The position numbers were made by a program, and so were the translations under genes. Below are positions 28,356 through 50,900 of a stretch of 64,000 bases of DNA, in pieces. The stretch is taken from NCBI GenBank assembly GCA_029204225.1, contig CM055108.1:20591644-20655643 (forward strand). The letters run 5' to 3'. Under the pieces are notes generated by a model, which saw only the letters and a program-made list of their open reading frames with translations, was not told the origin of the DNA and searched no databases. How positions within the stretch are numbered: the stretch's first letter is position 1; every line of letters starts with the position of its first letter. Source of the stretch: Diphasiastrum complanatum. Taxonomy: Eukaryota > Streptophyta > Lycopodiopsida > Lycopodiales > Lycopodiaceae.

Positions 28356-31300
28356 GTATTGGGCAGTTGAAACCATTGTTGAGGGGCGGTATATTTTGTT
28401 GCCCTTCATCCTCTGTGCTTGTTTGTGTCTACAGGTTCCAATTCTGAATTGCTCCTTACCAAGTAGTCGGGTTTGAGGGTTGCCATTGCCGTTGAATGGC
28501 TCAGGCATGTCAAGCATTAGCAGAGCAAACTTTTGACCATGGTTGCTGCTTAAGTCTGCAAGAGAAGAGCTAAAATAAGGATAGAATCAGTGTTTTTAAT
28601 TGCGTTCTCTTATTGTAAAACATCCAATATCGAATGAAGTAAGTTTTAATCTTCCGAAATTGGCACTCAACAAATGGGGTTGAACGTACTCATACGTGGA
28701 GGACATAAAGAAGCTCATCATTTCTGTAACAGATTCTTTATCTGGAATTAGCTGTGCGTATGAAGATAGATTAATTTTTTTTTCTCAATGCGAGTTCCTT
28801 ATGTGCAAAAAGTCAACAAGCCAACGTGTTGTTCCCCCAAACAACAAAAACGAATTTGGAGCAAGGCCTCAAGGCCCACTTTCTAGAACTTACTGTTTAC
28901 ATGCCAATTATAAATCACTTTCTGTTTGGACGAGGATAAGAGAGAAACTCACGGCTCTGATCAATGAGGAATATACCAGCAATCAATGATCATGCTACTT
29001 GATGCTGCGTAACCAGGAGAAATACACACCTGGAATAAGAGAGCTTTTTTTCTGCGTCAGTTTTGTCCATTGATATGTGCATGTGTTTAGGTGTGCTTAA
29101 CAGTGGCAAGCACTTTTTGTGTTTGTTTCGTGATTTTGCCGTTTTGCATGCACGTTACCAAAGCTAGTTCCAGGTATTTGCATGCCCCCCTGTTCTCTTC
29201 GTGCATTTCACAATGCCTGGACATCTTTTGACGGGTTTTTCTTGTTTGGGGTCCACAGACATTCTTAGAGGACTTCTTAAGCTACTGTGCTAGTCGAACT
29301 AGGAATTCTTACAACTGACACTGGAAGAAGAGGGCCTGAAACTTCAATCTAGGAATTTTCTTACAACTGACATTGGAAGAAGAGGGCCTGAAACTCAAGC
29401 CGAATCTACTGAGTTGGGACTAGCTCCCTGAGAGACATAGAATTAGAAGTACAGACTGATTAGATCCTTTTCTAGGATAATCTCTAGTTAGCACCAAGTT
29501 AGGGGAAGTCATGAGGTTTGGACATGAGAGACACAGTTTACTTTTTTTAAATCTTTTGAGTGAATACTTGTTCTATCAGGGATGTCTGGATTGTGAAACA
29601 GCCACTTGCTGAGATGTTGCTTCTAAATCTTTGAAGTGAATACTTGGTGTATCAGTGAAGTCCAGTTGACAATTGTGAAACATTTCCATATTATTCTGTA
29701 GGAAACATGGAGATTATGCCGACTGGGGCCTTCATGTCTGGGGTTGTACCATGTTCTCAAGAGCTTGGGAGGATCCATTACTTCCTAGTGGAGTAGACGA
29801 CTTTGGTGTTTACTGGGATGTCACAACAAAAGATGGAGGGATCCTGAATTTTATGATTCACCAAGGAGATATAAAAGTTTGTTTCCAAAACTTGTTCCAA
29901 TAGTTCCATCATCATGTCTGTGTTGCAGAAACATTTATGAGCTTTCTTTCTGTAAGCGCTTAAAGAAACAGCTATCAAACTGTACTGTGTAGTTGGATCA
30001 GCTTATAAGCTTTGCTGTTTAATAGCTTCCATAATAACAGAAATTTGTACTTGTTTGACTGATGGTAATTGCCACAGGAGAGAGCAGGTTCATTGCCACA
30101 TGCAGGACATGCTATTGTCTGGGTGGTACAAGATCAGCTAAACCAGTTCTTTAAAAAGCCAGACCTTTATTCTTTGCCCATGGTAACACTGTGACTCTGC
30201 CTGTCTATCTCGGTCCTGCAACATTCTTTTCTCACTGTTATGATACGTATATGTTCAGGTCTGATCTTACCTTCTTTATCCAACTTGTTAATACATCACT
30301 GGTGAATAGGCAAAAATTCTTCCTTGCCGCACCCTGATGCTGCTATACATCCATATTGACAAATCATGTTTTATCAGTCAAAAAGGACATGCTTACCTTT
30401 CGCTGTTGTGCTCATCTCCTACATATTGGTGATTACAATGCTGATGTTTAGTTGCAATGATTTTTTAGAGCACATGTTTTTTCTTGGACACCTTGGAGCT
30501 TCTTTTGCGATTCTGGAAAATCATCTTTTTTGTTATCCTCTTTCTGTATTTTTCCAAATTGCTTGCATTACGTACAGATGGTAAAAGGAAACAAGCAGAG
30601 TGAATATCAAAGTGAGGTATTTTGCACACGAGTTGCAAGATAGGTCAACAGAAAATAGGAGCAACAAAAGGCTATTCTAACTCAACCTTCACTTGTCACT
30701 TCCACTTGTCCAAGTGTGATGCATCATACGAACATTCGAAAGACTAATTTCATTTGCTCATGTTCTCTTCAATGACTAAGGAGCTTGAGATAGGTCTCAA
30801 TTGATCCTTTGATGGGAATGTGTTGAAAGTATGGCCCTCAAAGTTGCAGATACCCCTTGGGTTATATACTACGATTGATATTCAAATGACCTGGTTAGTG
30901 TTCATAAACATGGGTTAGAAGGTACCCAATTTACTATGAGATCAGATGGAGATACTATTGCCTATTTTGAGATGCACCTATTATGGACTCTTATAGCATA
31001 TGAGAATCCACACTATGTTGCATTCATGGTACGAGAGATGTTCTTACTATGATAGGATCTATGTCAGCCAGCTCAACAGAGTCACTCCAATACACAACTC
31101 CAAACTACGTCCTTTTTTCTAGTAGAAGACCATGGATAGATCCAAATTCAGATGATGGTGATGATGACGATGACACTCCTGCACATAGACACCACAGACG
31201 AGCGTATCAGCCAACATTATGTCATTGTTAGAGCTATATGTCCTACCATGCAGAGACACACATCCCATAGGCGACCTCCTCAATGACGTCAGCAGCACAC

Positions 31301-32848
31301 CACAACCATACCTCCAACAACAACTTCTACTACATCCTTCTTCAGTAGCAGCAGGATGATGGCAATATGTTATACCATCATGTTTGTAGATGGATATATT
31401 TTGCATTATATTTCTCTTAAACCTTAGCATTTAGATCTATATGTAGTCTTTTTTATTGTTTTGAAGAGGTTTCATACGCTCCCAATGATGCCATATGCTT
31501 GACATTTTACTCTTTTGTCTTATGTGCCTTGTGGCATTGAAAAGACATCAATAAAGCTTTCTTCTTTCTTTCTATCTTTCTTTCTTTCTATCTTTCTTTC
31601 TTTCTTTCTTTTGTGTGTGCGAGATTTTATTTAAATACTAGTTGTTGGTACATTCATGTGTTGTCGTTCTAGGTTGTGATCGTTTGTAACTTATATCTAT
31701 CATGCTATGCACAATGCATTTCAGGGTTTAACATTATGTGACATAAGTGGAGTCTATCAGTTTGAAGGTCTTTAGTTTTGTTGTTCTTTGGAGTTATTGT
31801 AGCTTCACACCAAAATGTGTTGACGTGATGATTACTTAAGCCCCAAGTTAGACATTGTGTGGCACATTACGCTTAACTTTTAATTTATATTTCTTGATTG
31901 CATAAATCTTTTTTCTTAAACTCTTATTTACTCAAATTGACAACAACTAGCAGGCATGATTCTAACAGTAAGTGGTATCTCAACCTCTTTTCATTTCTAG
32001 GGTGATCTAGGCTTGGCACGTGCTTTTTGGGTCACAAGGGATTTATTAGCTTGGCATTTGGATGCTGCAAATAGTCACGTTAATTTGCATGCTAGCAAAA
32101 AAGCAACTTTACACCTCTCAGAAAAAGGGGTTGAAGGTTTGTGTGAGCTTGTTTTTTTGATTTTGTAGCTGTGTGCTTTGTTTGGCTAGTGCATGATTGT
32201 TTGTGCATGTAGCATTTAACATGCTCTTTAAAGCTAAACGTATTTTCAGGTTCTTCCTCTTGTTGCATACAGCTTCTGAAAGTTGTCTGTAGCATTGATC
32301 TTGTGGAAGATGTAAACTTTTAACGAACATGCCTAGGAAATTGTATGTTTGCTAAAGAAATCAAATTGTCATTTTTTACTTGTAGGAGGAGATTTGAAGA
32401 TTAAGCTTGAACCACACTTGAATGGACTTCCAGATGAGGCAAGTATTTTAAGTGGTTGATGTTTGTGTTAAGCTAGTACAAGGCTTAGATTTTAAGTCAA
32501 AATCTAATTTTAAGAAACACGCTCACATTAAAATTCTTTTCCTACATGTCAAATGTTACTAATGTGTCATTTTATGTTCTAAAGTGTGTGCATGTATTGT
32601 CTTGAAGTCATGTTGGCATTTTACCATGAATCATTTTTAGATATTAGGGTGTCCATCCTTTCAAGAGTCACATGAATGCTTCTTGGTTTCCAAGGGGAGG
32701 CTCAAACTTGGGAACAAAGAAACTTTGGATGTCAAGCTAACCACATGAATGGAAGAACTCAATGATCAACGTTATGAACACACAAAATAAAGAGATATGG
32801 ATCACCATAACACATGTTCATTAGTATCTCCACATCACAATGCTACCA

Positions 32849-32903
<55 letters not shown>

Positions 32904-35900
32904 CATAGGTCCCGCGGTACTGGGTACCGCGGATCCCGGTACCGCGGGACCATACTGGTACCGCGGTACCATGATGGTACCGCGGTACCACAATATAATA
33001 ATATATTTATTATTTAATATTTTTTTTAATTTTTTTTTACCTAAACCTACCCGCCCCCCTCGCATTTCCTCTGAAATTTTTTTGAGCCCTCTCCGCCCTG
33101 CCATCGCTGCTGGTTTTTCTTGCCTGCCTTTGATTCCTTGCGTCGCCCATCGCCCACGCAACGCCCTGCCTTGCATCTGATTTCCTTTGCCCTGCACTCG
33201 CCCATTTTCAGCGTCTCTCCAACAGTGAACCCTGCTGTTTTTTTTCCAGCAATCCATCCCTCATTTCATCTGCAATGGTGCAATCCGACCTTTCCGGTCT
33301 GTGGGACGAGGTAGACATTGTCAGGCGGGTTGCCGACAAGGCCAACAAGACCGGTCAGAAGATCGTGCGCTGCCGATACTGTCTCGTCGAGTTTGCTGCA
33401 TCCCTCACTCGCCTTAAAGGCCATCTGCTCGGTGCACGCGCCAAAAATGGTGCCACCTTGAATGCTGCCCCTTGTGGCAGCATGACCGTCCCCGACAGGC
33501 AGCGACTACTGGACACCTACGGGCCGCGGCTCGTGGCAGGGGAGAACACCATTTCGGAGGGCGTTCTCCGATTTTGCACCGCTCCTTATGTGACTAACCC
33601 AGAGTTGCTGCCTGCTTGGCTGGCACGCACGAGGAGAGGGAGTGCATCCTCCTCTGGTCCCTTTGCCCCTCAGACAGCTCTGCCTCATGCACCCCCATCT
33701 GCTCAGATTCCGGTGGATCCCGTCCCATCGCGTCCGACAGTTGCCACTGCGGTTCCACCACCACCCACCGTTGCTCGCACTCCACCAGTCTACGACTTTC
33801 TCATGGACTCTCCGCCACCCGAGCAGGCCCAGGATGGTACTGGGAGGATGTGGAAGAGATCCCTTCTTCCTTCCCTTCCCATCCGGATGACCTCCTCAGC
33901 CAGCAGTTTTCGTACCCCATGCCAGATGTTGCCCCTCCACCAGTGCACCCCACCTATGCTGCTGCACCCATCCCTGCCAGTGCATCCCACTCTCCCCATT
34001 CCACGTCTACAGCCGATGCATCCACCAGCGCCCAGCCTGTCGCGTCATCGTCCATTCCCGTCACGGTTGGTGCACCGTGCTGGAGGTCCACCACCCGTCG
34101 TCCACCAGGGAGAGCCCTCGTGCAGCAGACCATTCGCGGCGCGCATCAGCCGCACATGGACAGAGAGGCCACACAGGCCGTGGCCAGTCTGGTTTACGAG
34201 CTGAACCTGCCCTTTGCCATCACCGACTCTGAGCCCTTCAGAAGGGCCTTCCGCCTTGCACAGTCTGTCAGCCCTAGCTGGAGAGTCCCTAGTTCAGAGG
34301 TTGTCCGCACACACATGCTGAGGGATAGGGTCGAGTCCTTGTCTAGAGAGATGGAGCCTCTGCGTCGGCACTGGGCCACTTACGGTTGCAGCATCATGTC
34401 CGATGGCTGGACTGATGTCAGGAGGAGGCCGATCCTCAACATACTGGTCTCCAGCTGCATGGGCACACAGTTTTTGAGGGCAGTGGATTGCAGCAGGGGG
34501 GGGAGAGTCATATCTGCAGAGTTCATGTTTGATGTCATCAGGTCTTCCATCCTAGCCATAGGCCCACAGCATGTCGTCACGGTGGTGACGGACAATGCCA
34601 CGAACTGCATTCAGATGGGTGTACTGCTAGAGGCCGAGTTCCCTCATATTGTTCATACCCCCTGTGCAGCCCACGGCATAGACCTTTTGATGGGGGACAT
34701 TGGAGCACTTCCCTGGGTTAGAGCCATCGTCCGGGAGGCCCTCTTCCTGGTGACTTTTGTCACCAGAAAGAGGCGTGTTCTTGCCATGTTCCGGGTGTTT
34801 AGCCATCTGGACCTCCGTAAGCCAGCCCCCACGCGCTTTGCATTCGACTTGGTGGTCATCGACCGTTTGATCAGGTGCAGCTTCTACAGATGGTTGCCAG
34901 TGATCTTTGGGGTGCCAGTACATTTCCGCACACTGAGGATGGGGAGCACTTTTCTTCCACGGTGAGGGGAGACCAGTTCTGGAGGGATGCACAGACATTG
35001 TCAGGACTGCTTCGACCACTCTACATTGTGCTCCGCATGGCTGACAGCGAGGGGTCGACACTTGGACTGGTGTATGAGCTCATGGACCGGATTGGACAGT
35101 TCCTGCAGCTGCCCATCTTGCAGCCAGAGAGGTAAGCGGTACAGTGTTGCAATTGACCTTTATCTTTTCAGTACTTGCTAGTTTGTTTTTCTGTCAATGT
35201 TAAGCTTTTTCGTAATGCCCTAAACCACATGCCCCTCACCTGCAGGATGACAGAGCTGAAGTTCATATGGGAGACGCGATGGAACTACTTCCACAGGAGT
35301 ATCCACAGCGTTGCACACATGCTGCATCCCCTCTTCCTCTCTCCGACACAGATCGCAGACAGGGAGCTCGAGGCCGATTGGCTTCAGTACATTCACAGGG
35401 TGGGTCCACACATAGGTTTGGATCCTATCAGGCTCATGGAGGAGCTCGCTGCATTTCGTTTCGGCATGGGCACATTCGGCCACCCGGCTGCCCAGGATCC
35501 AGAGAGGAGGCAGCTACCCATTACCTGGTGGACCATGTTCGGTAGCACATACCCATCTATACAGCGTCTTGCACTGCGTGTCCTTTCTCAGGTATGCATC
35601 TCATTTTATCCTCCATTTTTTGTGTTTCGTTGAAGTTTCACCTTTGCCACAATGTGCTGAAGTATTTCAATGCACGCACCACAGGACTGTGCTGCCTCTG
35701 TGTGTGAGCGTAATTGGAGCACATGGGCACTGATTCACACGAGGAGAAGAAACCGGTTGTCAGTGAGTCAGTTGGAGCGGTTGGTGTTCTGTAGCACCAA
35801 CGCACGTCTCGCCAGGAGGCTTCCGACCATTACGAGCGCATTGCAGGTGATAAGCTAATCTTTCATAGCATGTTGGTTGACTCCTGGTATGTTGGTTTCA

Positions 35901-38900
35901 TTTCTTGAAAAAGTTGTCTCTCTGACATGCAAATTTTAAACCTTGCAGACGAAGATATCTGATTTGGAGCGCCAGGTTGACTTGCCTACGGACAGCACCC
36001 ATCCCATGCCTGCAGATGACCTGGGCACACAGTTGATGGCAGAGAGAGAGAGGGAGCTTGCCGAGATGAGAGAGAGAGAGCTTGGGCTTGAGCACAGAGA
36101 GCCCCCATTGTATGAGGCAGATGAGCCAGTGTCAGAGGATGAGCATGATGAGGATGAGCCCATTCGGGTTGTGTTTGCCAGACCAGAGAGGGATGAGGCA
36201 GATTATACAGGTGCAGGGCACACGCCACGGGCAGGGGTCACAGGTGCATCACGTGGCAGAGGTGGGACACATGGCACAGGTTATACCGGCAGACAGGCAG
36301 GGCACACAGGGGGGGGCAGTGGCATACCTACCTATGTCGACATGATGGAGGAGGCTCTTGATAGAGGGCAGAGTGGTTTAGATGCTGGTCCCGCAGATGT
36401 TTGGATGCGTGCAGCACAGAGTCATGGCCGTTACTACGACAGCACACCAGAGGAGGCACCTGATGACTTTCATTGCACAGATTGGGAGGCCATGCAGGGT
36501 CTACAGGGTGCACATGATGAGGCACGGGATGAGGCTTGGGTTGATTCAGGGGTTGGTGCACAGGATGATTCAGAGGTCGGTGCACAGGATGATTTAGAGG
36601 CTGGTGCACAGGATGAGTCCCAGAGCCCAGAGCATTTGTATTCGGATGCCCAGCTGGCCGACTTGGTTGCCACATTGGATTCAGAGGCCCAGCAGATGCC
36701 GAGTGTCAGGGCGCCCCCATCATCTCTTGCCAGCATGCCACACACAGAGTCCCAGCCAGAGCAGCCGCATGAGGTGCCTACAGTTCCTCCAGCTCCTCAG
36801 AGGGTGTATGTGGGTCGCACAGCTCCTCCAGTGCCACCGATGCCATTTAGGCCTGCATCCCCTTCATCGCCGTCCACTTCTGCAGCACCAGGTCTCCATG
36901 GCAGGCCACCATCTTCACATCCACAGTGGCTCCTCCAGTGGCAGCACCCACGTCACATCCTCCTCCTTTGGCAGCACCCAGGATGTACCAGTACCGGCCA
37001 CCACAGCGCCCCTTTCAGTACATATCGCCACTGTACTCGCCTCCTGCACAGCCAGTTCCTCCACCTGCAGCAGCCCCACGGGCACACACTCCACGAGCTC
37101 ATCCTCCTCGCTCAGTTGCACAGGGAGTTCCCTCTTTTGCTTCCCTATCCCAGCCGGCCTCAGCTTGGGCCCAGCCTAGCCAGCCAGGTGATTTGCATGG
37201 GGGTGACGAGGCATTGACAGCTCCTCTTGTCCGCAAGAGACCAGGCAGGCCCAAGGGTGCACCGAACAAGAAAGGCAAGGCACAGAAACTGCCAGGGAGG
37301 AGAGGACGACCACGCAGGGCTCCAGGTACAGGTAGAGGTGCAGTATCACAGCCAGTTGGAGCAGGTGTTGTTGGTTTGGCCTGCTTGGGGGCTGATGCGG
37401 AGGCTGATTGGGAGGATGAGGATGGCGAGTCTTCCCCCTCGGATACACAGCCCATGCCAGTTCCAGACAGGCAGAGATATCGGCTGCGAGAGTCAGCTGG
37501 GGGCCCTGAGTTGTCTCCAGAGCATTCGTCTGAGTCAGAGCCAGAGCATTGATTGTGGCTCTATTGTTTTAGTTTCAGTAGTTTGTCTCTAGCAGTCGGT
37601 CTACCATTGTACTCAGATGATTTTTCACATTATATACAGTGTTTGGCCTACATTATTTGCTGCACATTGTGCGTATGTCGCTCTGTACATGTGATGCTTT
37701 ATTTTATGTTGAAGAATTCTATGTGCGTGTGTGAATCCTATTTTCATTTAATTTCGTTTGAAGTGAATGCTAGCTTCACATATATGCACCTACATCATGA
37801 GCACAGCAATCACCCCTACACCCCAAACGACATTGAATAAACACATGTAATACATCTGCATTTAAAAAAATTACAAACATTGCATCTTACATGACCAGGC
37901 TCGCGTTGCACAAAAAACAACTATGTATATATTCAACCGTTGTATCAGGATAACATCACATATACTGTCATTTTTTTAAGCAGCCATCTAGTTATTTGCT
38001 GCACCATAAACTGCCGAAAACTACATAGCAACAGTCCGCCACATACGGGTGGACCTCATCTATTCTAAACATCCCTCACTGATCCTCCACCGACTCCTCG
38101 CCCTCGTCTGGTGCATTGTTTTGTCGCTCTTGCTCTGCCTCCCGGTTAGCCCGAGCTGCCTCCTGGTTAGCCCGACGTCTGGCCGCCCTTTCCCTGACCA
38201 TGATGAGCTGCCGTCGTGTGAAATTCATTCCGATCTGCTCATCCAGATCCAGCTCGACAGCGGGGACAGGATCCACAGCGGGGGCGGGTGGCTCCGGTTC
38301 CGGATTTCTCTGTCGAGTCTGTCGCAGCATCTCTCGGATATCTGCCTCTTGCTTCCGATGCCTCTCGTTGTGCCTTCGGATATCTTCCTCAAGCTTTCTC
38401 CTGGCTTCGCCCTCGGGCTTCGGTGGTATTCGCTCAGCCATCTCGATCGACCTTCTCCTCACAGCACCCTGATCCTTGAACACCCTCTCACAGCACCCTG
38501 GCTCTCAAACAGCCTCTCACAGCCTGTCACCGGCTCTCGCTTGCTCTCTCACTGTCTATCACTAGCCCTCTCACAGCCTCTGAAAATGCCGACCACAATG
38601 GCATTGTGAGTGCCTATTTATCCCCACAGCCTGATCGGCCATGTGGATCCCCATCATCCCTCCATGTGCCTCCGTACCTGCCCCCATGTGATGCTCCCCC
38701 CTGTGTTGGTCTCCCATTGGGCCCATGGTCTGCTCACCCACAATGCCCATGTGCCTCTGTACTTGCCCCCATGTGATGCTACCCCCCTGTGTTGGTCTCC
38801 CATTGGCCCCTCGGTCTGCTCACTCGCAGTGCCCATGTGCCATTGCAACAGTCCCCTGCATCATGTACTGTACCCTCTTTTTTTACACCCAGAACCCCCT

Positions 38901-41900
38901 CTTTTTACTTTTTTTTGTCCTTTTTTGGTAGTTAATATGCAAAAAAAAATTACTAAAAATATATTAAAAAATAAAAAAAAAATATTAAAAATGGTACCGC
39001 CCTGGTACCGCGGATCCCAGGGCGGTACCGTACCGGCGGTACCACTGATATGATCCCAGGGCGGTACCATACCAGCGGTACCAGAGGGTACTATGATATG
39101 TATACATATCATAGTACCCTCTGGTACCGCTGGTATGGTACCGCCCTGGGATCATATCAGTGGTACCGCCGGTACGGTACCGCCCTGGGATCCGCGGTAC
39201 CAGGGCGGTACCATTTTTAATATTTTTTTTTTATTTTTTAATATATTTTTAGTAATTTTTTTTTGCATATTAACTACCAAAAAAGGACAAAAAAAAGTAA
39301 AAAGAGGGGGTTCTGGGTGTAAAAAAAGAGGGTACAGTACATGATGCAGGGGACTGTTGCAATGGCACATGGGCACTGCGAGTGAGCAGACCGAGGGGCC
39401 AATGGGAGACCAACACAGGGGGGTAGCATCACATGGGGGCAAGTACAGAGGCACATGGGCATTGTGGGTGAGCAGACCATGGGCCCAATGGGAGACCAAC
39501 ACAGGGGGGAGCATCACATGGGGGCAGGTACGGAGGCACATGGAGGGATGATGGGGATCCACATGGCCGATCAGGCTGTGGGGATAAATAGGCACTCACA
39601 ATGCCATTGTGGTCGGCATTTTCAGAGGCTGTGAGAGGGCTAGTGATAGACAGTGAGAGAGCAAGCGAGAGCCGGTGACAGGCTGTGAGAGGCTGTTTGA
39701 GAGCCAGGGTGCTGTGAGAGGGTGTTCAAGGATCAGGGTGCTGTGAGGAGAAGGTCGATCGAGATGGCTGAGCGAATACCACCGAAGCCCGAGGGCGAAG
39801 CCAGGAGAAAGCTTGAGGAAGATATCCGAAGGCACAACGAGAGGCATCGGAAGCAAGAGGCAGATATCCGAGAGATGCTGCGACAGACTCGACAGAGAAA
39901 TCCGGAACCGGAGCCACCCGCCCCCGCTGTGGATCCTGTCCCCGCTGTCGAGCTGGATCTGGATGAGCAGATCGGAATGAATTTCACACGACGGCAGCTC
40001 ATCATGGTCAGGGAAAGGGCGGCCAGACGTCGGGCTAACCAGGAGGCAGCTCGGGCTAACCGGGAGGCAGAGCAAGAGCGACAAAACAATGCACCAGACG
40101 AGGGCGAGGAGTCGGTGGAGGATCAGTGAGGGATGTTTAGAATAGATGAGGTCCACCCGTATGTGGCGGACTGTTGCTATGTAGTTTTCGGCAGTTTATG
40201 GTGCAGCAAATAACTAGATGGCTGCTTAAAAAAATGACAGTATATGTGATGTTATCCTGATACAACGGTTGAATATATACATAGTTGTTTTTTGTGCAAC
40301 GCGAGCCTGGTCATGTAAGATGCAATGTTTGTAATTTTTTTAAATGCAGATGTATTACATGTGTTTATTCAATGTCGTTTGGGGTGTAGGGGTGATTGCT
40401 GTGCTCATGATGTAGGTGCATATATGTGAAGCTAGCATTCACTTCAAACGAAATTAAATGAAAATAGGATTCACACACGCACATAGAATTCTTCAACATA
40501 AAATAAAGCATCACATGTACAGAGCGACATACGCACAATGTGCAGCAAATAATGTAGGCCAAACACTGTATATAATGTGAAAAATCATCTGAGTACAATG
40601 GTAGACCGACTGCTAGAGACAAACTACTGAAACTAAAACAATAGAGCCACAATCAATGCTCTGGCTCTGACTCAGACGAATGCTCTGGAGACAACTCAGG
40701 GCCCCCAGCTGACTCTCGCAGCCGATATCTCTGCCTGTCTGGAACTGGCATGGGCTGTGTATCCGAGGGGGAAGACTCGCCATCCTCATCCTCCCAATCA
40801 GCCTCCGCATCAGCCCCCAAGCAGGCCAAACCAACAACACCTGCTCCAACTGGCTGTGATACTGCACCTCTACCTGTACCTGGAGCCCTGCGTGGTCGTC
40901 CTCTCCTCCCTGGCAGTTTCTGTGCCTTGCCTTTCTTGTTCGGTGCACCCTTGGGCCTGCCTGGTCTCTTGCGGACAAGAGGAGCTGTCAATGCCTCGTC
41001 ACCCCCATGCAAATCACCTGGCTGGCTAGGCTGGGCCCAAGCTGAGGCCGGCTGGGATAGGGAAGCAAAAGAGGGAACTCCCTGTGCAACTGAGCGAGGA
41101 GGATGAGCTCGTGGAGTGTGTGCCCGTGGGGCTGCTGCAGGTGGAGGAACTGGCTGTGCAGGAGGCGAGTACAGTGGCGATATGTACTGAAAGGGGCGCT
41201 GTGGTGGCCGGTACTGGTACATCCTGGGTGCTGCCAAAGGAGGAGGATGTGACGTGGGTGCTGCCACTGGAGGAGCCACTGTGGATGTGAAGATGGTGGC
41301 CTGCCATGGAGACCTGGTGCTGCAGAAGTGGACGGCGATGAAGGGGATGCAGGCCTAAATGGCATCGGTGGCACTGGAGGAGCTGTGCGACCCACATACA
41401 CCCTCTGAGGAGCTGGAGGAACTGTAGGCACCTCATGCGGCTGCTCTGGCTGGGACTCTGTGTGTGGCATGCTGGCAAGAGATGATGGGGGCGCCCTGAC
41501 ACTCGGCATCTGCTGGGCCTCTGAATCCAATGTGGCAACCAAGTCGGCCAGCTGGGCATCCGAATACAAATGCTCTGGGCTCTGGGACTCATCCTGTGCA
41601 CCAGCCTCTAAATCATCCTGTGCACCGACCTCTGAATCATCCTGTGCACCAACCCCTGAATCAACCCAAGCCTCATCCCGTGCCTCATCATGTGCACCCT
41701 GTAGACCCTGCATGGCCTCCCAATCTGTGCAATGAAAGTCATCAGGTGCCTCCTCTGGTGTGCTGTCGTAGTAACGGCCATGACTCTGTGCTGCACGCAT
41801 CCAAACATCTGCGGGACCAGCATCTAAACCACTCTGCCCTCTATCAAGAGCCTCCTCCATCATGTCGACATAGGTAGGTATGCCACTGCCCCCCCCTGTG

Positions 41901-44900
41901 TGCCCTGCCTGTCTGCCGGTATAACCTGTGCCATGTGTCCCACCTCTGCCACGTGATGCACCTGTGACCCCTGCCCGTGGCGTGTGCCCTGCACCTGTAT
42001 AATCTGCCTCATCCCTCTCTGGTCTGGCAAACACAACCCGAATGGGCTCATCCTCATCATGCTCATCCTCTGACACTGGCTCATCTGCCTCATACAATGG
42101 GGGCTCTCTGTGCTCAAGCCCAAGCTCTCTCTCTCTCATCTCGGCAAGCTCCCTCTCTCTCTCTGCCATCAACTGTGTGCCCAGGTCATCTGCAGGCATG
42201 GGATGGGTGCTGTCCGTAGGCAAGTCAACCTGGCGCTCCAAATCAGATATCTTCGTCTGCAAGGTTTAAAATTTGCATGTCAGAGAGACAACTTTTTCAA
42301 GAAATGAAACCAACATACCAGGAGTCAACCAACATGCTATGAAAGATTAGCTTATCACCTGCAATGCGCTCGTAATGGTCGGAAGCCTCCTGGCGAGACG
42401 TGCGTTGGTGCTACAGAACACCAACCGCTCCAACTGACTCACTGACAACCGGTTTCTTCTCCTCGTGTGAATCAGTGCCCATGTGCTCCAATTACGCTCA
42501 CACACAGAGGCAGCACAGTCCTGTGGTGCGTGCATTGAAATACTTCAGCACATTGTGGCAAAGGTGAAACTTCAACGAAACACAAAAAATGGAGGATAAA
42601 ATGAGATGCATACCTGAGAAAGGACACGCAGTGCAAGACGCTGTATAGATGGGTATGTGCTACCGAACATGGTCCACCAGGTAATGGGTAGCTGCCTCCT
42701 CTCTGGATCCTGGGCAGCCGGGTGGCCGAATGTGCCCATGCCGAAACGAAATGCAGCGAGCTCCTCCATGAGCCTGATAGGATCCAAACCTATGTGTGGA
42801 CCCACCCTGTGAATGTACTGAAGCCAATCGGCCTCGAGCTCCCTGTCTGCGATCTGTGTCGGAGAGAGGAAGAGGGGATGCAGCATGTGTGCAACGCTGT
42901 GGATACTCCTGTGGAAGTAGTTCCATCGCGTCTCCCATATGAACTTCAGCTCTGTCATCCTGCAGGTGAGGGGCATGTGGTTTAGGGCATTACGAAAAAG
43001 CTTAACATTGACAGAAAAACAAACTAGCAAGTACTGAAAAGATAAAGGTCAATTGCAACACTGTACCGCTTACCTCTCTGGCTGCAAGATGGGCAGCTGC
43101 AGGAACTGTCCAATCCGGTCCATGAGCTCATACACCAGTCCAAGTGTCGACCCCTCGCTGTCAGCCATGCGGAGCACAATGTAGAGTGGTCGAAGCAGTC
43201 CTGACAATGTCTGTGCATCCCTCCAGAACTGGTCTCCCCTCACCGTGGAAGAAAAGTGCTCCCCATCCTCAGTGTGCGGAAATGTACTGGCACCCCAAAG
43301 ATCACTGGCAACCATCTGTAGAAGCTGCACCTGATCAAACGGTCGATGACCACCAAGTCGAATGCAAAGCGCGTGGGGGCTGGCTTACGGAGGTCCAGAT
43401 GGCTAAACACCCGGAACATGGCAAGAACACGCCTCTTTCTGGTGACAAAAGTCACCAGGAAGAGGGCCTCCCGGACGATGGCTCTAACCCAGGGAAGTGC
43501 TCCAATGTCCCCCATCAAAAGGTCTATGCCGTGGGCTGCACAGGGGGTATGAACAATATGAGGGAACTCGGCCTCTAGCAGTACACCCATCTGAATGCAG
43601 TTCGTGGCATTGTCCGTCACCACCGTGACGACATGCTGTGGGCCTATGGCTAGGATGGAAGACCTGATGACATCAAACATGAACTCTGCAGATATGACTC
43701 TCCCCCCCCTGCTGCAATCCACTGCCCTCAAAAACTGTGTGCCCATGCAGCTGGAGACCAGTATGTTGAGGATCGGCCTCCTCCTGACATCAGTCCAGCC
43801 ATCGGACATGATGCTGCAACCGTAAGTGGCCCAGTGCCGACGCAGAGGCTCCATCTCTCTAGACAAGGACTCGACCCTATCCCTCAGCATGTGTGTGCGG
43901 ACAACCTCTGAACTAGGGACTCTCCAGCTAGGGCTGACAGACTGTGCAAGGCGGAAGGCCCTTCTGAAGGGCTCAGAGTCGGTGATGGCAAAGGGCAGGT
44001 TCAGCTCGTAAACCAGACTGGCCACGGCCTGTGTGGCCTCTCTGTCCATGTGCGGCTGATGCGCGCCGCGAATGGTCTGCTGCACGAGGGCTCTCCCTGG
44101 TGGACGACGGGTGGTGGACCTCCAGCACGGTGCACCAACCGTGACGGGAATGGACGATGACGCGACAGGCTGGGCGCTGGTGGATGCATCGGCTGTAGAC
44201 GTGGAATGGGGAGAGTGGGATGCACTGGCAGGGATGGGTGCAGCAGCATAGGTGGGGTGCACTGGTGGAGGGGCAACATCTGGCATGGGGTACGAAAACT
44301 GCTGGCTGAGGAGGTCATCCGGATGGGAAGGGAAGGAAGAAGGGATCTCTTCCACATCCTCCCAGTACCATCCTGGGCCTGCTCGGGTGGCGGAGAGTCC
44401 ATGAGAAAGTCGTAGACTGGTGGAGTGCGAGCAACAGTGGGTGGTGGTGGAACCGCAGTGGCAACTGTCGGACGCGATGGGACGGGATCCACCGGAATCT
44501 GAGCAGATGGGGGTGCATGAGGCAGAGCTGTCTGAGGGGCAAAGGGACCAGAGGAGGATGCACTCCCTCTCCTCGTGCGTGCCAGCCAAGCAGGCAGCAA
44601 CTCTGGGTTAGTCACATAAGGAGCGGTGCAAAATCGGAGAACGCCCTCCGAAATGGTGTTCTCCCCTGCCACGAGCCGCGGCCCGTAGGTGTCCAGTAGT
44701 CGCTGCCTGTCGGGGACGGTCATGCTGCCACAAGGGGCAGCATTCAAGGTGGCACCATTTTTGGCGCGTGCACCGAGCAGATGGCCTTTAAGGCGAGTGA
44801 GGGATGCAGCAAACTCGACGAGACAGTATCGGCAGCGCACGATCTTCTGACCGGTCTTGTTGGCCTTGTCGGCAACCCGCCTGACAATGTCTACCTCGTC

Positions 44901-47900
44901 CCACAGACCGGAAAGGTCGGATTGCACCATTGCAGATGAAATGAGGGATGGATTGCTGGAAAAAAAACAGCAGGGTTCACTGTTGGAGAGACGCTGAAAA
45001 TGGGCGAATGCAGGGCAAAGGAAATCAGATGCAAGGCAGGGCGTTGCGTGGGCGATGGGCGACGCAAGGAATCAAAGGCAGGCAAGAAAAACTAGCAGCG
45101 ATGGCAGGGCGGAGAGGGCTCAAAAAAATTTCAGAGGAAATGCGAGGGGGGCGGGTAGGTTTAGGTAAAAAAAAATTAAAAAAAATATTAAATAATAAAT
45201 ATATTATTATATTGTGGTACCGCGGTACCATCATGGTACCGCGGTACCAGTATGGTCCCGCGGTACCGGGATCCGCGGTACCCAGTACCGCGGGACCTAT
45301 GATATATGTATATACATATATATGTATATATATACATCACAGCTATTGTAATTCGCTGCAGCAAATCATCAAAATATATATTTTTTTACTTTTCGAAAAC
45401 GTTTTTGGATCTGAATTTTTTCTTATGACAGTCTGAGTTGAGAAACGTTTTGAGAATATGGAGCAAAACTTACAGTACTGATGAACACCTTAAAGGTAGC
45501 TGCTAAGATTCCTCATTTTGTGCGAATGGCATCTCACCTAACTTTTTGGAATTGGACCTGAAAATACTGGAATCGTTCGGCTAATTTTCTACTTTTTGTA
45601 GAGACATATGAGTCTTCCACACACCCACTTCCGCACATTTCTGGTTTTTAGTGGATTTCTACTCCACGACCTATGCTACAGGGCAGGATACTTCGGGCCT
45701 CTAGTGGAGTTGCATGTTTGTATAAGTCGGTGTATACTCCTATTCGGTTGACTTCTGAAAGCGAAGAAATATGGAGGTTTCCGGATGTGTGTGGATTACA
45801 AGGGCTTAAATAAGGTGATTGTCAAGAATAAACATCCGTTACCCAGGACGGACGACCTTGTAGATCGCTTGGGTGGAGCTCAGTATTTCACCAAGATAGA
45901 TCTCAGGACAGGGTACCATCAAATACAAATTCAATCGGAAGATGTCCAAAAGACATGATTTTGTTTTAGATTTGGTCATTATGGATTCTTAGTGTTGCCT
46001 TTTGGGTTAAAGAATGCTCTAGCAACATTCCTAGCAAATGATGAACGATTTATTTCATCCATATTTGGAGAAGTTTGTGGTAGTATTCCTAGATGATATC
46101 CTTGTCTACAGTAAAACCTTTAAGGAGCACATACAGCACCTGAGAATAAAGAGTCCAAGCATGAATTCTTGAAGCAAGAGATGCTTTATCTCGGTCATAA
46201 GATCACAATTAATGGGATCAAGATTGACAAGGATAAAATCAAGATTGTGATTGAGTGGCCAATTCCGGGAACTGTGAAGCAAGTTAAATCATTTTTAGGA
46301 TTTACCATTTTCTTCAGAAGATTTATTGAGGATAATGCTAAGCTAGTGTTGCACACAAGCTCACAAACCCTAAGTAAATACACAGATTTACCCAGCAAAT
46401 CCGTCACTTTATTAATCTCAAGCAAATGTACATAGATCAACAAGCAAACATGAGAGCTCTGTTGCAAGTCTCCTCCCAACATAGCTACATAGGAATACCA
46501 TAATCATAATCATAATGAGGAATGCCTGACAAGGCTCACCCTATATCCCCTCAAGCACCCCTTAACCCTGACACATCCTACGGTCGACACATGGCAAACT
46601 CCATGCACAGCCGACACTTGCCACTTGGCAGTACCCTGACAAATAGGCAAGCTAGTAGGTGGACAGTCTGAGACGTGTCACTCATGCATTATACCAAGTG
46701 TCCCAATGAGCATATGACACACGTCCTGTTGACCCATCCATTGACCGTCTGACAAGTGTCACTCATGCACTGGACCAAGTGTCCCAGTGAGCATTTGACA
46801 CGTGTCACGTTGACCAGTCAACCCTTCCTACATTTTAGGAGGTCAGTCCAGCAGACTCTTAGGAGACCCAGTACAGCCTTGGCCATCTCGGATTTAGTCA
46901 CTATAACAGATATTTACATTGCAATTTACAATTGTCTCCACAGGCTGGTGACTTAGCCATTTACAATTTAATAATTACAATTTACCATACATTGGGCAAG
47001 GGATTCTAAGTACATCTAACATCCCTTCCCTCCTCAGATGACATCGTCCTCGATGGCAAAGTTTGGATACTGTGTATGCAACCCATGCGCGGTCTCCCAG
47101 GTAGCATCACTGAGAGGTCGTTCATGCCATGCAACCAAGTACTCACGGAGCAAACAATTCCGCAACCGTCTATGCCTCCGGTCCAATACTCTCGCTGGTC
47201 CATGCATCACCTCTCCATGCTCCTGAAACAATACAAGACCATCAGCCAACAAGTTATCACCATCATGTGAAACCTTCTTTAGGCGTGAAACATGAAAAAT
47301 AGGATGAACCTTACAACCAACAGGCAAATCCAATTCATAAGCAACTCTATTAATCTTTTTAACAATTTTCCAAGGTCCATAGTATCTAGGTGACAACTTA
47401 TAACACTTCCCTGTCTTTAGGGTTTTCGAGTCCTTTTTCGATTCTCTGGTTTCTGTTGTTAAGGGTGTAGATTGGGCCTGGTAGGAGGGCGACCTACTGC
47501 CAGTTGACGGTTCGTGAAAAGCTTTTGCCGTTTGGAAGAAATTCGACGTCAAACAGCCGCTTTTTTCCTCTTTTTTTCGATTTTGAACCCGATTTGGTGC
47601 CCAAAAAAAGTTTTTTACCGACTTTTGTACTAGCATAGGACGCAAGGGAAGTACTACTTGTCCTTGGCTTTGTATTTTCCCCAGAGTTTTATTACTTTCC
47701 AGTTGCCTTTTTCTCTTTCAGTTCTAAATTGTGAATAAGCTGAAAATTTCCACATTTCCTTTTTCTGAGTGTGTTTCAATAAGTGCAATTTCTAGCTTGA
47801 TTTCATGCTGTGTCTGTTTTTGTTTCATAATGGAAGATGATAGCATTGATATTCCGCTCAGTCCACCCGTTGCTCTTCCATCACCACCACCCAGCCCTGT

Positions 47901-50900
47901 GCTTAGTCTTACCCATAATCTGCTTACAATGGCTGCTCGTTCGCCTGCTGGTACTTCCCCTTCTGTGCAAGCTTGCATGGATAGTGTGGAAAAGACTGCC
48001 GCAGGGATGCGAGCAATGATGGTAGCTGGTGGTTATGCGTCTTCTTCGCAGTATGTTCCGCCTTATCCGTCTTCTGCTGTTCGTCCTGTGTTACCTCTAC
48101 CCTATCCAGAAGACAAAGATATTAAACCTACCCGTTTCGCAAGAAACACTCCCCAATGCAATACTGATATCGTAAATCAGTGGTTGCATAAGTGGGAAGA
48201 GTATTTTGATTTGAAGCGGTCCCCAACTGATGAGGGTTGGCGGGTCCGCAAAGTTGCTTACCATTTCACTAATTTTGCTGACAGGTGGTGAAGCAAGTTG
48301 TTGAAGTCTAATCAGGCTCCGAGAAGGTGAGGGCTGTACACCAAGCCTTTGCTGAATAGAGTATTGTGGGAGTAACCATAGTATCAAAAAGTCGCATTTA
48401 CTATGAGCATCGTGAATGTACCTCCTAAAGCAAAATCTTTGCAACTGAACTAGGGAGGCCTCGAGCGGAAGTTGCATGTGCATACTGAAAATGGGGTCCC
48501 TGAAAAGCACTCCTAGATAACTATAGGATGAATCCACCTCCATAATTTGACCATGGATGTGCTGAAGACCATGATTTTGGTCTTCAGAATGTTCGCCTGC
48601 AATCCCCATCTAGTGCAAAAAGCATTTAGCCTATGAGGATGCCTCTAAAGCCCCTCTCTGGTCGGTGATATTAGAACTACATCATCGACATACAACAATA
48701 TGGCAACTACTATGTCTCTAAGGCTACAACCCAAACCACCATCACGACCAATAACTTCCTCAAGCTCATCAATATATAACCCAAATAAAGTAGGTGAAAG
48801 GGGTTCTCAACCCTGGTTTCGAAATGCTCAACTCACTCCCGGACAGAGTCAAAGGCTTTCCTGAACTACAAAACAACAGTAAACTCTCTCTCATCTGCAC
48901 TTGATTGGCTCGATAAGGAAACAAAGTCGATAATGTGATCAATAATGGAGTAATGAGCTTTGAAACCAGCTTGACCCATAGCATCCAACCCTCTTGGTCT
49001 CCGCCTTTGTACTTACTGCATCCACTTTAGAATGAAATTTATAAGCCTTCAAGAAATGAATCTTTCAAAAGAGCAAGGAACAATAAACCTCCGGCTCCAT
49101 CTTAGTATCTTGAGCCATTGTCACAACTAGCTCTGCAAAAAATATGACTAAGACCTTTTTTCAAAATGATGCATCTAGCGATTTTTCTAAGAATTCAGTT
49201 TCTCTATTCCATCTTGTTGAGGACTATAAAAGGAAGAAACCCCTTTTATAATGCTTAGCAAAACTTCCTGCCATAATTACTTGTAATTTTGAGAATTTGG
49301 CAAACCATCTCTTTGTCTACTATTGCTTTTTTAAAGCAAGCACGGTTTCCGTTTCATCTTTACTGAGAGAATCTGGTTCATTGCCATGTACCTCTACAAA
49401 AAAAATGTTTGAGCTTTTTAATAAGAATCTTGCACATGGGCTACAATGATGAACTTCCATGCAAAAAAGAGGGCCATCTTCTGACTATGTTGCACGTTTC
49501 TTTCATGTCGATCTCTTCAAAAGGGCCATAAGATATCATAAGTCCTTCAACATGCTACATAAACTTGCATGTTTCTACACTAAATTGCATTAGGTATTTT
49601 ATTTAAAGAAAACTCTAAGAATCATTTTCTCACACTTCAAGGCAATAAAGCTTCATTGGAATTGCAGGTTTTGGAAAAGTTCCCACAACTTAGTGGCTAT
49701 GAAGCATTTCGAATCCCTCAAAGTTTTGATCCTAAAGCACTTGTCACATATCAACTAGCTGTTTCAGCAACCGATGGTAAGCTACTTCTCACCAATTCAG
49801 TTTTATCAAGAATTTTTTCTTGAGCTATCTAAAGAATAGCTTGTAGAAAAAGAAGGTCATTCTTTGAGATACATGTATGTTTGTTTGGATGCTTATGTTG
49901 GGTTGTGGTTAACAACTCGTTGTTGGGATTTATCATTAACGGGCATATTTTGATGTATCATTACCCACTTAGGAAATCCATTCAAACATTTGGAATCTTT
50001 TTTCAGATGTTTGAAACGAATCCTTCACATTCATTTAGAATCTTGAAAACGTTCAATTGCTAACATGCATTTGCTTTCCTAGTAAGAAAAACATTGACCT
50101 CAATTTTTGAGAAAATAGAAGACAATGAATTTGTGAACCTGCTGAAAAAATGCATATGGCTATCCTTCAACAGAAGGCATACACCTCTTTTCCTCTCCTC
50201 GAGGTCCAGAGGTTGATTCCGCTCAACTGTACAATTGACTTTTTTTTTTTTCAGGTCAAATAAATGCATATGCTAAAGAAGATGAAGAAAATCATATATG
50301 CTTAATAATATGCTGCACAAGTGTCTAATTTGGAGAAGATACTAGGAAAATGTTTATTTCGAAGATGCCTCACGAAATTGGGGGGGGGGGCATGATAGCC
50401 CTGGCTATTTTGCTAGCCGCAACTCTACTTTAGGAACAATATTTCCTTTGCTAGTTTTTTGCCCTATGTTATTCATAGATGATCCATGCTTAGGAGTTTT
50501 GTAATGTTGTTGGGATTTATCATTAACGGGCATATTTTGATGTATCATTATGAATTATTTTGGAATTTGACCCACTTAGGAAATCCATTCAAATATTTGG
50601 AATCTTTTTGCAGATGTTTGAAACGAATCCCTCACATTCATTTAGAATCTTGAAAACGTTCAATTGCTAATATGCATTTGCTTTCCTAGTAAGAAAAACA
50701 TTGTCCTTAATTTTTGAGAAAATAGAAGACAATGAATATGAAGAACCTGCTGAAAAATTCATATGCCTATCCTTCAACAGAAGGCATACACCTCTTTTCC
50801 TCTCCTCGAGGTCCAGACGTTGATTCCGCTCAACTGTACAATTGTTTTTTTTTTCAGGTCAAATAAATGCATATGCTAAAGAAGATGAAGAAAATCATAT

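Follow-up and report, generated by a model that had tools for sequence, protein, structure and literature searches.

Palindromes that are both large and nearly perfect should be unstable and, to our knowledge, the first origin of inverted transposon pairs has mostly been inferred. Here we describe a 12.4-kb palindrome made of two complete hAT elements, E1 and E2, in an intron of a gene for limit dextrinase, a starch-debranching enzyme, of Diphasiastrum complanatum. It lies within a stretch of 64,000 nucleotides (assembly GCA_029204225.1, contig CM055108.1, positions 20,591,644 to 20,655,643) which we call the window, and positions are those of the window unless a contig is named. The palindrome is a variant of the already known inverted transposon pair and, among the ways in which it could have arisen, we favour, without quite thinking it probable, one in which E1 inserted once and was then copied on the spot in inverted orientation, tail to tail.

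Like Mu killer of maize, the locus is an inverted copy of a DNA transposon that includes transposase sequence and lies beside host genes (PMC3440606). Mu killer, however, is a partial, internally deleted MuDR of the Mutator superfamily with genetic proof of its silencing activity, whereas the window holds a whole hAT element with both arms complete inside an intron, and the parallel is structural only. Alternative transposition of Ac/Ds, by sister-chromatid or reversed-ends events, likewise gives local inverted duplications and rearrangements from hAT elements, and flanking inverted duplications induced by Ac/Ds in maize are mentioned in the same account (PMC3744419); the products described there duplicate flanking host DNA between the element ends, whereas the unit duplicated here is the element plus its 7-bp flank. 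In yeast, inverted duplications are documented that start at inverted repeats close to breaks, and the fold-back products have, as here, a palindromic junction at a self-complementary sequence (PMC10622511). The yeast products are large chromosome rearrangements formed via dicentrics, whereas in the window the copy ends where the transposon does and is joined back to its own chromosome. The VIM4-VIM2 and PAI4-PAI1 pairs of Arabidopsis Cvi are also close inverted repeats, able to give stem-loop RNA by read-through (PMC13213937); these are host genes with observed small interfering RNAs (siRNAs), whereas the pair in the window is a transposon known from sequence alone.

An earlier note on this DNA had described arms of 6.2 kb pairing position by position with three mismatches and no indel, and direct pairing of x with 78205-x bears this out. 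Positions 32901-39102 and 39103-45304 are reverse complements with 3 mismatches (at 33769, 33197 and 33112 in E1 coordinates) and 0 indels, and the pairing is lost from 32900 outward. The central 10,666 bp of the 12.4-kb structure form a perfect palindrome; the window's other perfect even-length palindromes of at least 18 bp reach a maximum of 30 bp, in the TA tracts of both outer junctions. An independent repeat finder returned arms of 32871-39102 and 39103-45334 with 0 bp between them, the additional ends being TA tract. The same note had spoken of almost no spacer, and the arms do abut at 39102/39103; this can be refined, as the palindrome comprises two whole 6192-bp elements whose ends leave a 14-bp palindromic spacer, the two standing tail to tail with their 3' ends facing. 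On present evidence the palindrome is confirmed as a real feature, with the following parts.

32904-39095, plus strand: E1, complete hAT element of 6192 bp forming the left arm, with ends CATAGGTCCC and GGGTACTATG and ATATGTAT flanking both sides
39110-45301, minus strand: E2, complete hAT element of 6192 bp forming the right arm, mirror of E1 with 3 mismatches
39096-39109: 14-bp palindromic spacer ATATGTATACATAT separating both 3' ends, its first 8 bp equal to the left flank of E1
32896-32903 (left copy) and 39096-39103 (right copy): 8-bp target-site duplication ATATGTAT of E1
45302-45321: right outer flank, consisting of AT, ATATGTAT (45304-45311) and ATACATAT, a 20-bp perfect palindrome

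The right flank AT-ATATGTAT-ATACATAT includes a 16-bp perfect palindrome after its initial AT. The target-site duplication of E1 is perfect on left and right, whereas no such 8-bp repeat flanks E2 itself, whose inner side reads ATACATAT and whose outer side reads ATATATGT.

Short terminal inverted repeats and repeated subterminal motifs mark hAT elements. Both are found here, with a 5-bp terminal inverted repeat, CATAG, at both element ends and 24 of the window's 28 copies of GGTACC sited at the four element ends; these marks are taken in part from PMC10368747. Together with the DUF659 and dimerisation domains listed below and the target duplication of E1, they place E1 and E2, on sequence grounds, in the hAT superfamily, and the earlier description of two inverted hAT elements stands.

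33275-33843, plus strand: first reading frame of the E1 transposase, from its ATG to a 10-bp deletion
33598-34965, plus strand: open frame of E1 with DUF659 (PF04937, E 8.9e-41)
35246-35846, plus strand: E1 exons 35246-35591 and 35685-35846, hAT C-terminal dimerisation region (PF05699, E 1.3e-9, exons joined)
38076-38504, minus strand: second open frame of E1, without a Pfam family (mirror 39701-40129, plus strand)
32923-32989: 5' subterminal array of 6 GGTACC copies in E1, with 6 more at 38993-39082 near the 3' end

The match to PF05699 depends on joining the two exons, which together score 38.1 bits against a cut-off of 21.4, a single exon scoring 18.5 bits and falling below it. The first transposase frame had no Pfam match at E<=1, and a CxxC pattern such as a BED zinc finger would contain was seen in it by eye only. 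Structure prediction from the single sequence of the second open frame gave two long helices with a predicted template modelling score (pTM) of 0.30. A scan of viral contigs for the transposase gave 4 pattern matches, 0 of which were confirmed.

The earlier note had also proposed a search for further family members. A 900-bp piece of E1 was searched against the genome (1,744,706,496 bases in 5176 contigs, the window lying on the contig labelled C17), which returned 2364 candidates, 40 of which were scored. All 40 matched at 99-100% identity: for the two arms the figure is 100% over 900 bases, and for the remaining 38 it is 99%, with spans of 907 bases in 37 cases and 902 in one. Judged from these matches the hAT family is young and numerous. 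For 28 of the 38 non-arm matches the locus was cut out, giving 30 rows with the arms included, and in 21 of the 30 an uninterrupted TA run of at least 12 bp lies directly upstream of the 5' end. Another family-type end occurs within 190 bp upstream of the 5' end in 10 of the 30 rows (4 head-to-tail, 3 head-to-head and 3 end-like), two of the head-to-head rows, L031 and L047, being both members of one pair; the 20 rows with no neighbouring end include both arms, and the unscorable L035 was also placed there. Family copies show a preference for TA microsatellites and often lie next to another family end. Pure TA tracts leave the target duplications of most of the other copies uninformative.

Within the family, L034, L036, L044 and L047 form a second and very uniform subfamily with 2-4 substitutions over 3.7 kb, as judged from the 4 of their 6 row pairs that appear among the closest pairs listed. 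At L020 (contig C2513) two 5' ends of the family stand opposite each other, separated by AT alone. At L035 (C7:70593074) a 5' end runs straight into a 5' region in inverted orientation, 99.3% identical over 279 bp and with the tips lost, and this is possibly a head-to-head fused pair with no TA spacer.

The near-identity of the arms had been taken as special. By substitutions it is not: over the first 3.7 kb E1 differs from L038, an unlinked copy on contig C5, at 2 positions and from E2 at 3, the median over 496 pairs among 32 rows (4 of them repeats) being 25. When the full length is compared, the nearest other copy found has 2 + 9 = 11 substitutions, at least one of the later 9 lying at the edge of a 25-bp deletion, and the arms differ at 3 of 6192 positions. 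Since the scored family members are 99-100% alike and an unlinked copy is equally close over 3.7 kb, the near-identity of the arms largely reflects the youth of the family; arm identity as a proof of gene conversion or of artefact was accordingly rejected. By shared deletions, the arms are indeed set apart.

33844 (mirror 44361): 10-bp deletion breaking the transposase frame, present in only the two arm rows among 34
34880 (mirror 43325): 7-bp frame-breaking deletion, present in only the two arm rows among the 31 scorable of 34
36914 (mirror 41291): 25-bp frame-breaking deletion, present in both arms

Four of the 34 rows repeat others, and 3 are unscorable for the 7-bp deletion. The 25-bp segment is retained in all 4 of the other rows that cover it and in the copy at L038 (as L058), few copies being read that far. 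As both arms carry all three deletions and no other scorable copy does, both arms, to judge by these lesions, descend from one defective copy. Such descent is what in-place copying calls for, and a re-inserted sister copy would give the same.

All three mismatches between the arms fall within 870 bp of their outer ends, for which uniform placement would give a chance of about 0.003. Conversion directed to the centre would be in keeping with this, and so would a consensus effect close to the unique flanks. Two of the sites, 33197 and 33769, are polymorphic in the family, with the E2 state in 23 of 31 and 26 of 32 other rows (4 repeats included), and a reading of all three mismatches as new C-to-T changes in E2 was rejected on this account. 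That two of the three differences are family polymorphisms is in favour of two independent insertions of ordinary members later homogenised by gene conversion, as is the existence of inverted neighbours at C3:12.73 Mb (97.9%) and C535 (98.97%). However, conversion would then have had to cover nearly the whole arm with its three deletions, E2 has no target duplication and no arm-specific ancient variants were seen beyond the two polymorphic sites, and we regard this origin as highly improbable.

The spacer opens with the target 8-mer of E1, ATATGTAT, which would be expected of a palindrome formed at the site of E1; a collision among the window's TA-alternating 8-mers has a chance of about 1-2%. 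Self-complementary sequence is available at the turn, in the form of the 14-bp palindromic spacer and the 16-bp palindrome in the right flank. An in-place origin is further supported by the three shared deletions, by the smaller distance between the arms (3 substitutions) than to the nearest other copy found (11), by the missing target duplication of E2, and by the 40 scored among 2364 candidates, of which none other than the arms spans exactly 900 bases. The precedents in yeast (PMC10622511) and maize (PMC3744419) also favour it, as does the spacer, the only perfectly palindromic one among the listed tail-to-tail spacers with a G or C. As the sequence shows, one copy of a young hAT family that seeks TA microsatellites entered the limit dextrinase intron, leaving the 8-bp duplication now seen beside E1, and in the assembly this copy has three frame-breaking deletions. 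Under the in-place origin it would then have been recopied in inverted orientation at the same spot via the self-complementary TA-rich sequence just past its 3' end, by fold-back or template-switch synthesis at a break perhaps left by transposase, and a 2-bp AT filler would have linked the new 5' end to the right flank. The palindrome is now carried as intron sequence and, as assembled, cannot make an intact transposase of its own.

The outer flanks can also be read as a common ATATGTAT with 2 bp of slippage on the right, as would be seen if the palindrome had formed elsewhere and arrived as one unit through its two outer 5' ends. The match of the spacer to the present target site would then be chance, however, the 40 scored of the 2364 candidates hold no 900/900 match besides the arms, and the GTATAC-type junction is listed at the window place only. 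The ends of hAT elements are not equivalent, so that a 5'-5' pair may be a poor substrate. In Hermes the subterminal repeats are described as asymmetric (PMC10368747). Arrival as a composite unit thus appears very unlikely.

Tail-to-tail junctions elsewhere in the genome were sought with the pattern GGTACTATG-N8..30-CATAGTACC. The tail-to-tail pattern occurs at 24 places and its reversed control at 0; some places on small contigs may be allelic, having a spacer the same or nearly the same as that of a chromosome place. Perfect palindromes make up 15 of the 24 spacers, 14 of them pure AT, and of the 10 spacers that contain G or C the sole perfect palindrome is that of the window. The C9/C4551-type spacer is palindromic around a central base, and the GTATAC-type junction occurs only at the window among the 24 places. 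Seven of the 24 listed places were opened (C17, C9, C5, C23, C18, C12 and C19), as was C535, which is off the list; besides C17, 18 kb was opened at C535, 6 kb at C9 and 3 kb at each of the other five. C535 holds nearly full-length tail-to-tail copies with arms 98.97% alike and their facing 3' tips lost, C18 two tail-to-tail copies 98.3% alike over 1458 bp, and C12 an inverted identity of 100%, over 490 bp only; at C5, C23, C19 and C9 the two elements that meet are unlike. The head-to-head pair at C3:12.73 Mb is made of two subfamilies, with arms 97.9% alike and a TA spacer. The idea that the other tail-to-tail junctions are further perfect palindromes was rejected, as 0 of the 7 places opened besides C17 is full-length and near-perfect. 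Inverted neighbours are therefore ordinary in this genome, and among the eight opened tail-to-tail places only that of the window is full-length and near-perfect. At C12 (L056, C12:23203115-23206114) the 490-bp 3' piece lies inverted to a longer copy with 490/490 identity, and a TA tract follows its inner end, ...CAATG, which would fit the use of a cryptic end.

These habits of the family are what the main rival to in-place copying draws on, in which a sister of the deletion-bearing copy excised after replication and re-inserted in inverted orientation in the adjoining TA tract. The preference for TA tracts, the 10 of 30 rows near another family end and the 24 tail-to-tail junctions all fit it, and it accounts for the deletions common to the arms as well as for the exact ends of the two units. 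Against it, E2 lacks an 8-bp duplication (ATACATAT against ATATATGT) and the window's spacer is a perfect palindrome, as the other 9 spacers containing G or C are not, the 14 pure AT spacers being uninformative. Local re-insertion is a serious contender, though we think it on balance rather less credible than copying in place.

The same junctions bear on whether a single real element was mirrored during assembly by a fold-back read or a graph error. Many near-identical family copies make assembly hard, and consensus collapse would also leave mismatches only in the outer 870 bp near the unique flanks. Fold-back reads are expected to turn anywhere, however, whereas the turn lies 7 bp past the 3' end of the element and the far junction exactly at its 5' end. 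In addition the arms differ at three sites, the right junction has its own sequence, and tail-to-tail junctions with different arms are found elsewhere in the same assembly, showing that the arrangement is not peculiar to the window. We consider an artefact unlikely.

Several points weigh against inverted copying in place. It calls for two unusual events, in that the copying must both turn round and halt exactly where the element ends on the far side; a 2-bp filler has to be assumed as well, and the spacer falls 2 bp short of the palindrome in the right flank. The family also often inserts beside its own copies with no such event. The two family-polymorphic differences between the arms are unexplained by the simple model and hint at gene conversion or mixed ancestry, and slippage in TA tracts softens every argument drawn from the flanks.

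The earlier note had placed the palindrome in a host intron on the ground that both outer flanks lead into exons of one gene, and this gene can now be named.

32001-32136, plus strand: limit dextrinase exon upstream of the palindrome (PF17967, 6.4e-9; 2y4s residues 6-49, E 0.0018)
49642-49776, plus strand: limit dextrinase exon downstream of the palindrome (PF17967, 2.5e-7; 2y4s residues 55-106, E 4.9e-5)
32137-49641, plus strand: host intron of 17,505 bp holding the palindrome, with GT...AG bounds and the joined frame open

The 2y4s matches of both exons are to barley limit dextrinase and PF17967 is the pullulanase N2 domain. The exon ends at 32136 and 49642 join in frame on the same strand, and the assignment to an intron holds because the flanking exons are consecutive in limit dextrinase, the bounds are GT...AG and one frame stays open. 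Downstream of the window, on the same strand, are limit-dextrinase-like stretches which, judged from motifs only, resemble later exons. Such motifs were seen in L010-L017 (C17:20655644-20735643), out to about 131 kb in window coordinates, and suggest a limit dextrinase gene longer than 100 kb. On the other side, at 29679-29900 (plus strand), an exon-like stretch that precedes the limit dextrinase exons has a match to PUD (PF03714, 6.7e-13), the pullulanase-associated domain of bacteria. The solved barley enzyme aligns from residue 6 with exon 32001-32136 and has no match to this stretch, for which reason the plant gene here may have an extra N-terminal domain. To the right of the palindrome, in the same intron, a remnant of a Ty3/gypsy-type reverse transcriptase was seen by eye at 45700-46500.

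Pre-mRNA through this intron would form a 6.2-kb RNA hairpin, a potential source of siRNAs against relatives that are about 99% identical. By analogy the locus might act as Mu killer does, its intron hairpin RNA silencing the hAT family in trans. We judge this role doubtful, an estimate which stands apart from those given for the five origins. It would be consistent with transposase-bearing arms in a gene intron, with the many targets of about 99% identity and with natural gene inverted repeats that are tied to siRNAs by read-through in Arabidopsis Cvi (PMC13213937). On the other hand, AATAAA at 37836 in E1, in host sense, could end transcripts before the centre, and other inverted pairs in the genome could act likewise. 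The Mu killer hairpin model, cited as the precedent in the earlier note, is itself disputed: an inverted duplication of MuDR does silence, but the hairpin route is contested by Skibbe et al. 2012 (PMC3440606), who associate silencing with two short antisense transcripts unable to form large hairpins and not with read-through sense transcripts, leaving a contribution of minor longer transcripts possible. The VIM4-VIM2 inverted repeat (PMC13213937) offers a closer proof of principle for read-through siRNAs than Mu killer. Observed/expected CpG is 0.54 in the arms and 0.56 and 0.42 in the flanks, with TpG/CpA at 1.40 in the arms against 1.19 and 1.21. Since CpG depletion in the arms is about that of the flanks, with more TpG/CpA, older methylation is possible with no part played by the palindrome, and the lineage may have been methylated before the palindrome existed.

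A single genome here provides a comparative series: the hAT family is young, tail-to-tail junctions are listed at 24 places, and one of these is a full-length palindrome with private lesions common to its arms. Its origin by fold-back, local hop or conversion thereby becomes testable. The question can also be put whether, while a family is bursting, inverted pairs in introns set off its silencing by siRNAs. It is conceivable, if a long shot, that the family seeks out TA microsatellites, among them those next to its existing copies, and so repeatedly builds large inverted pairs, of which the intronic one, formed by inverted duplication in place, serves as a natural hairpin gene policing the family. 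If this were true, a self-limiting loop would be built into the target choice of a still-young family.

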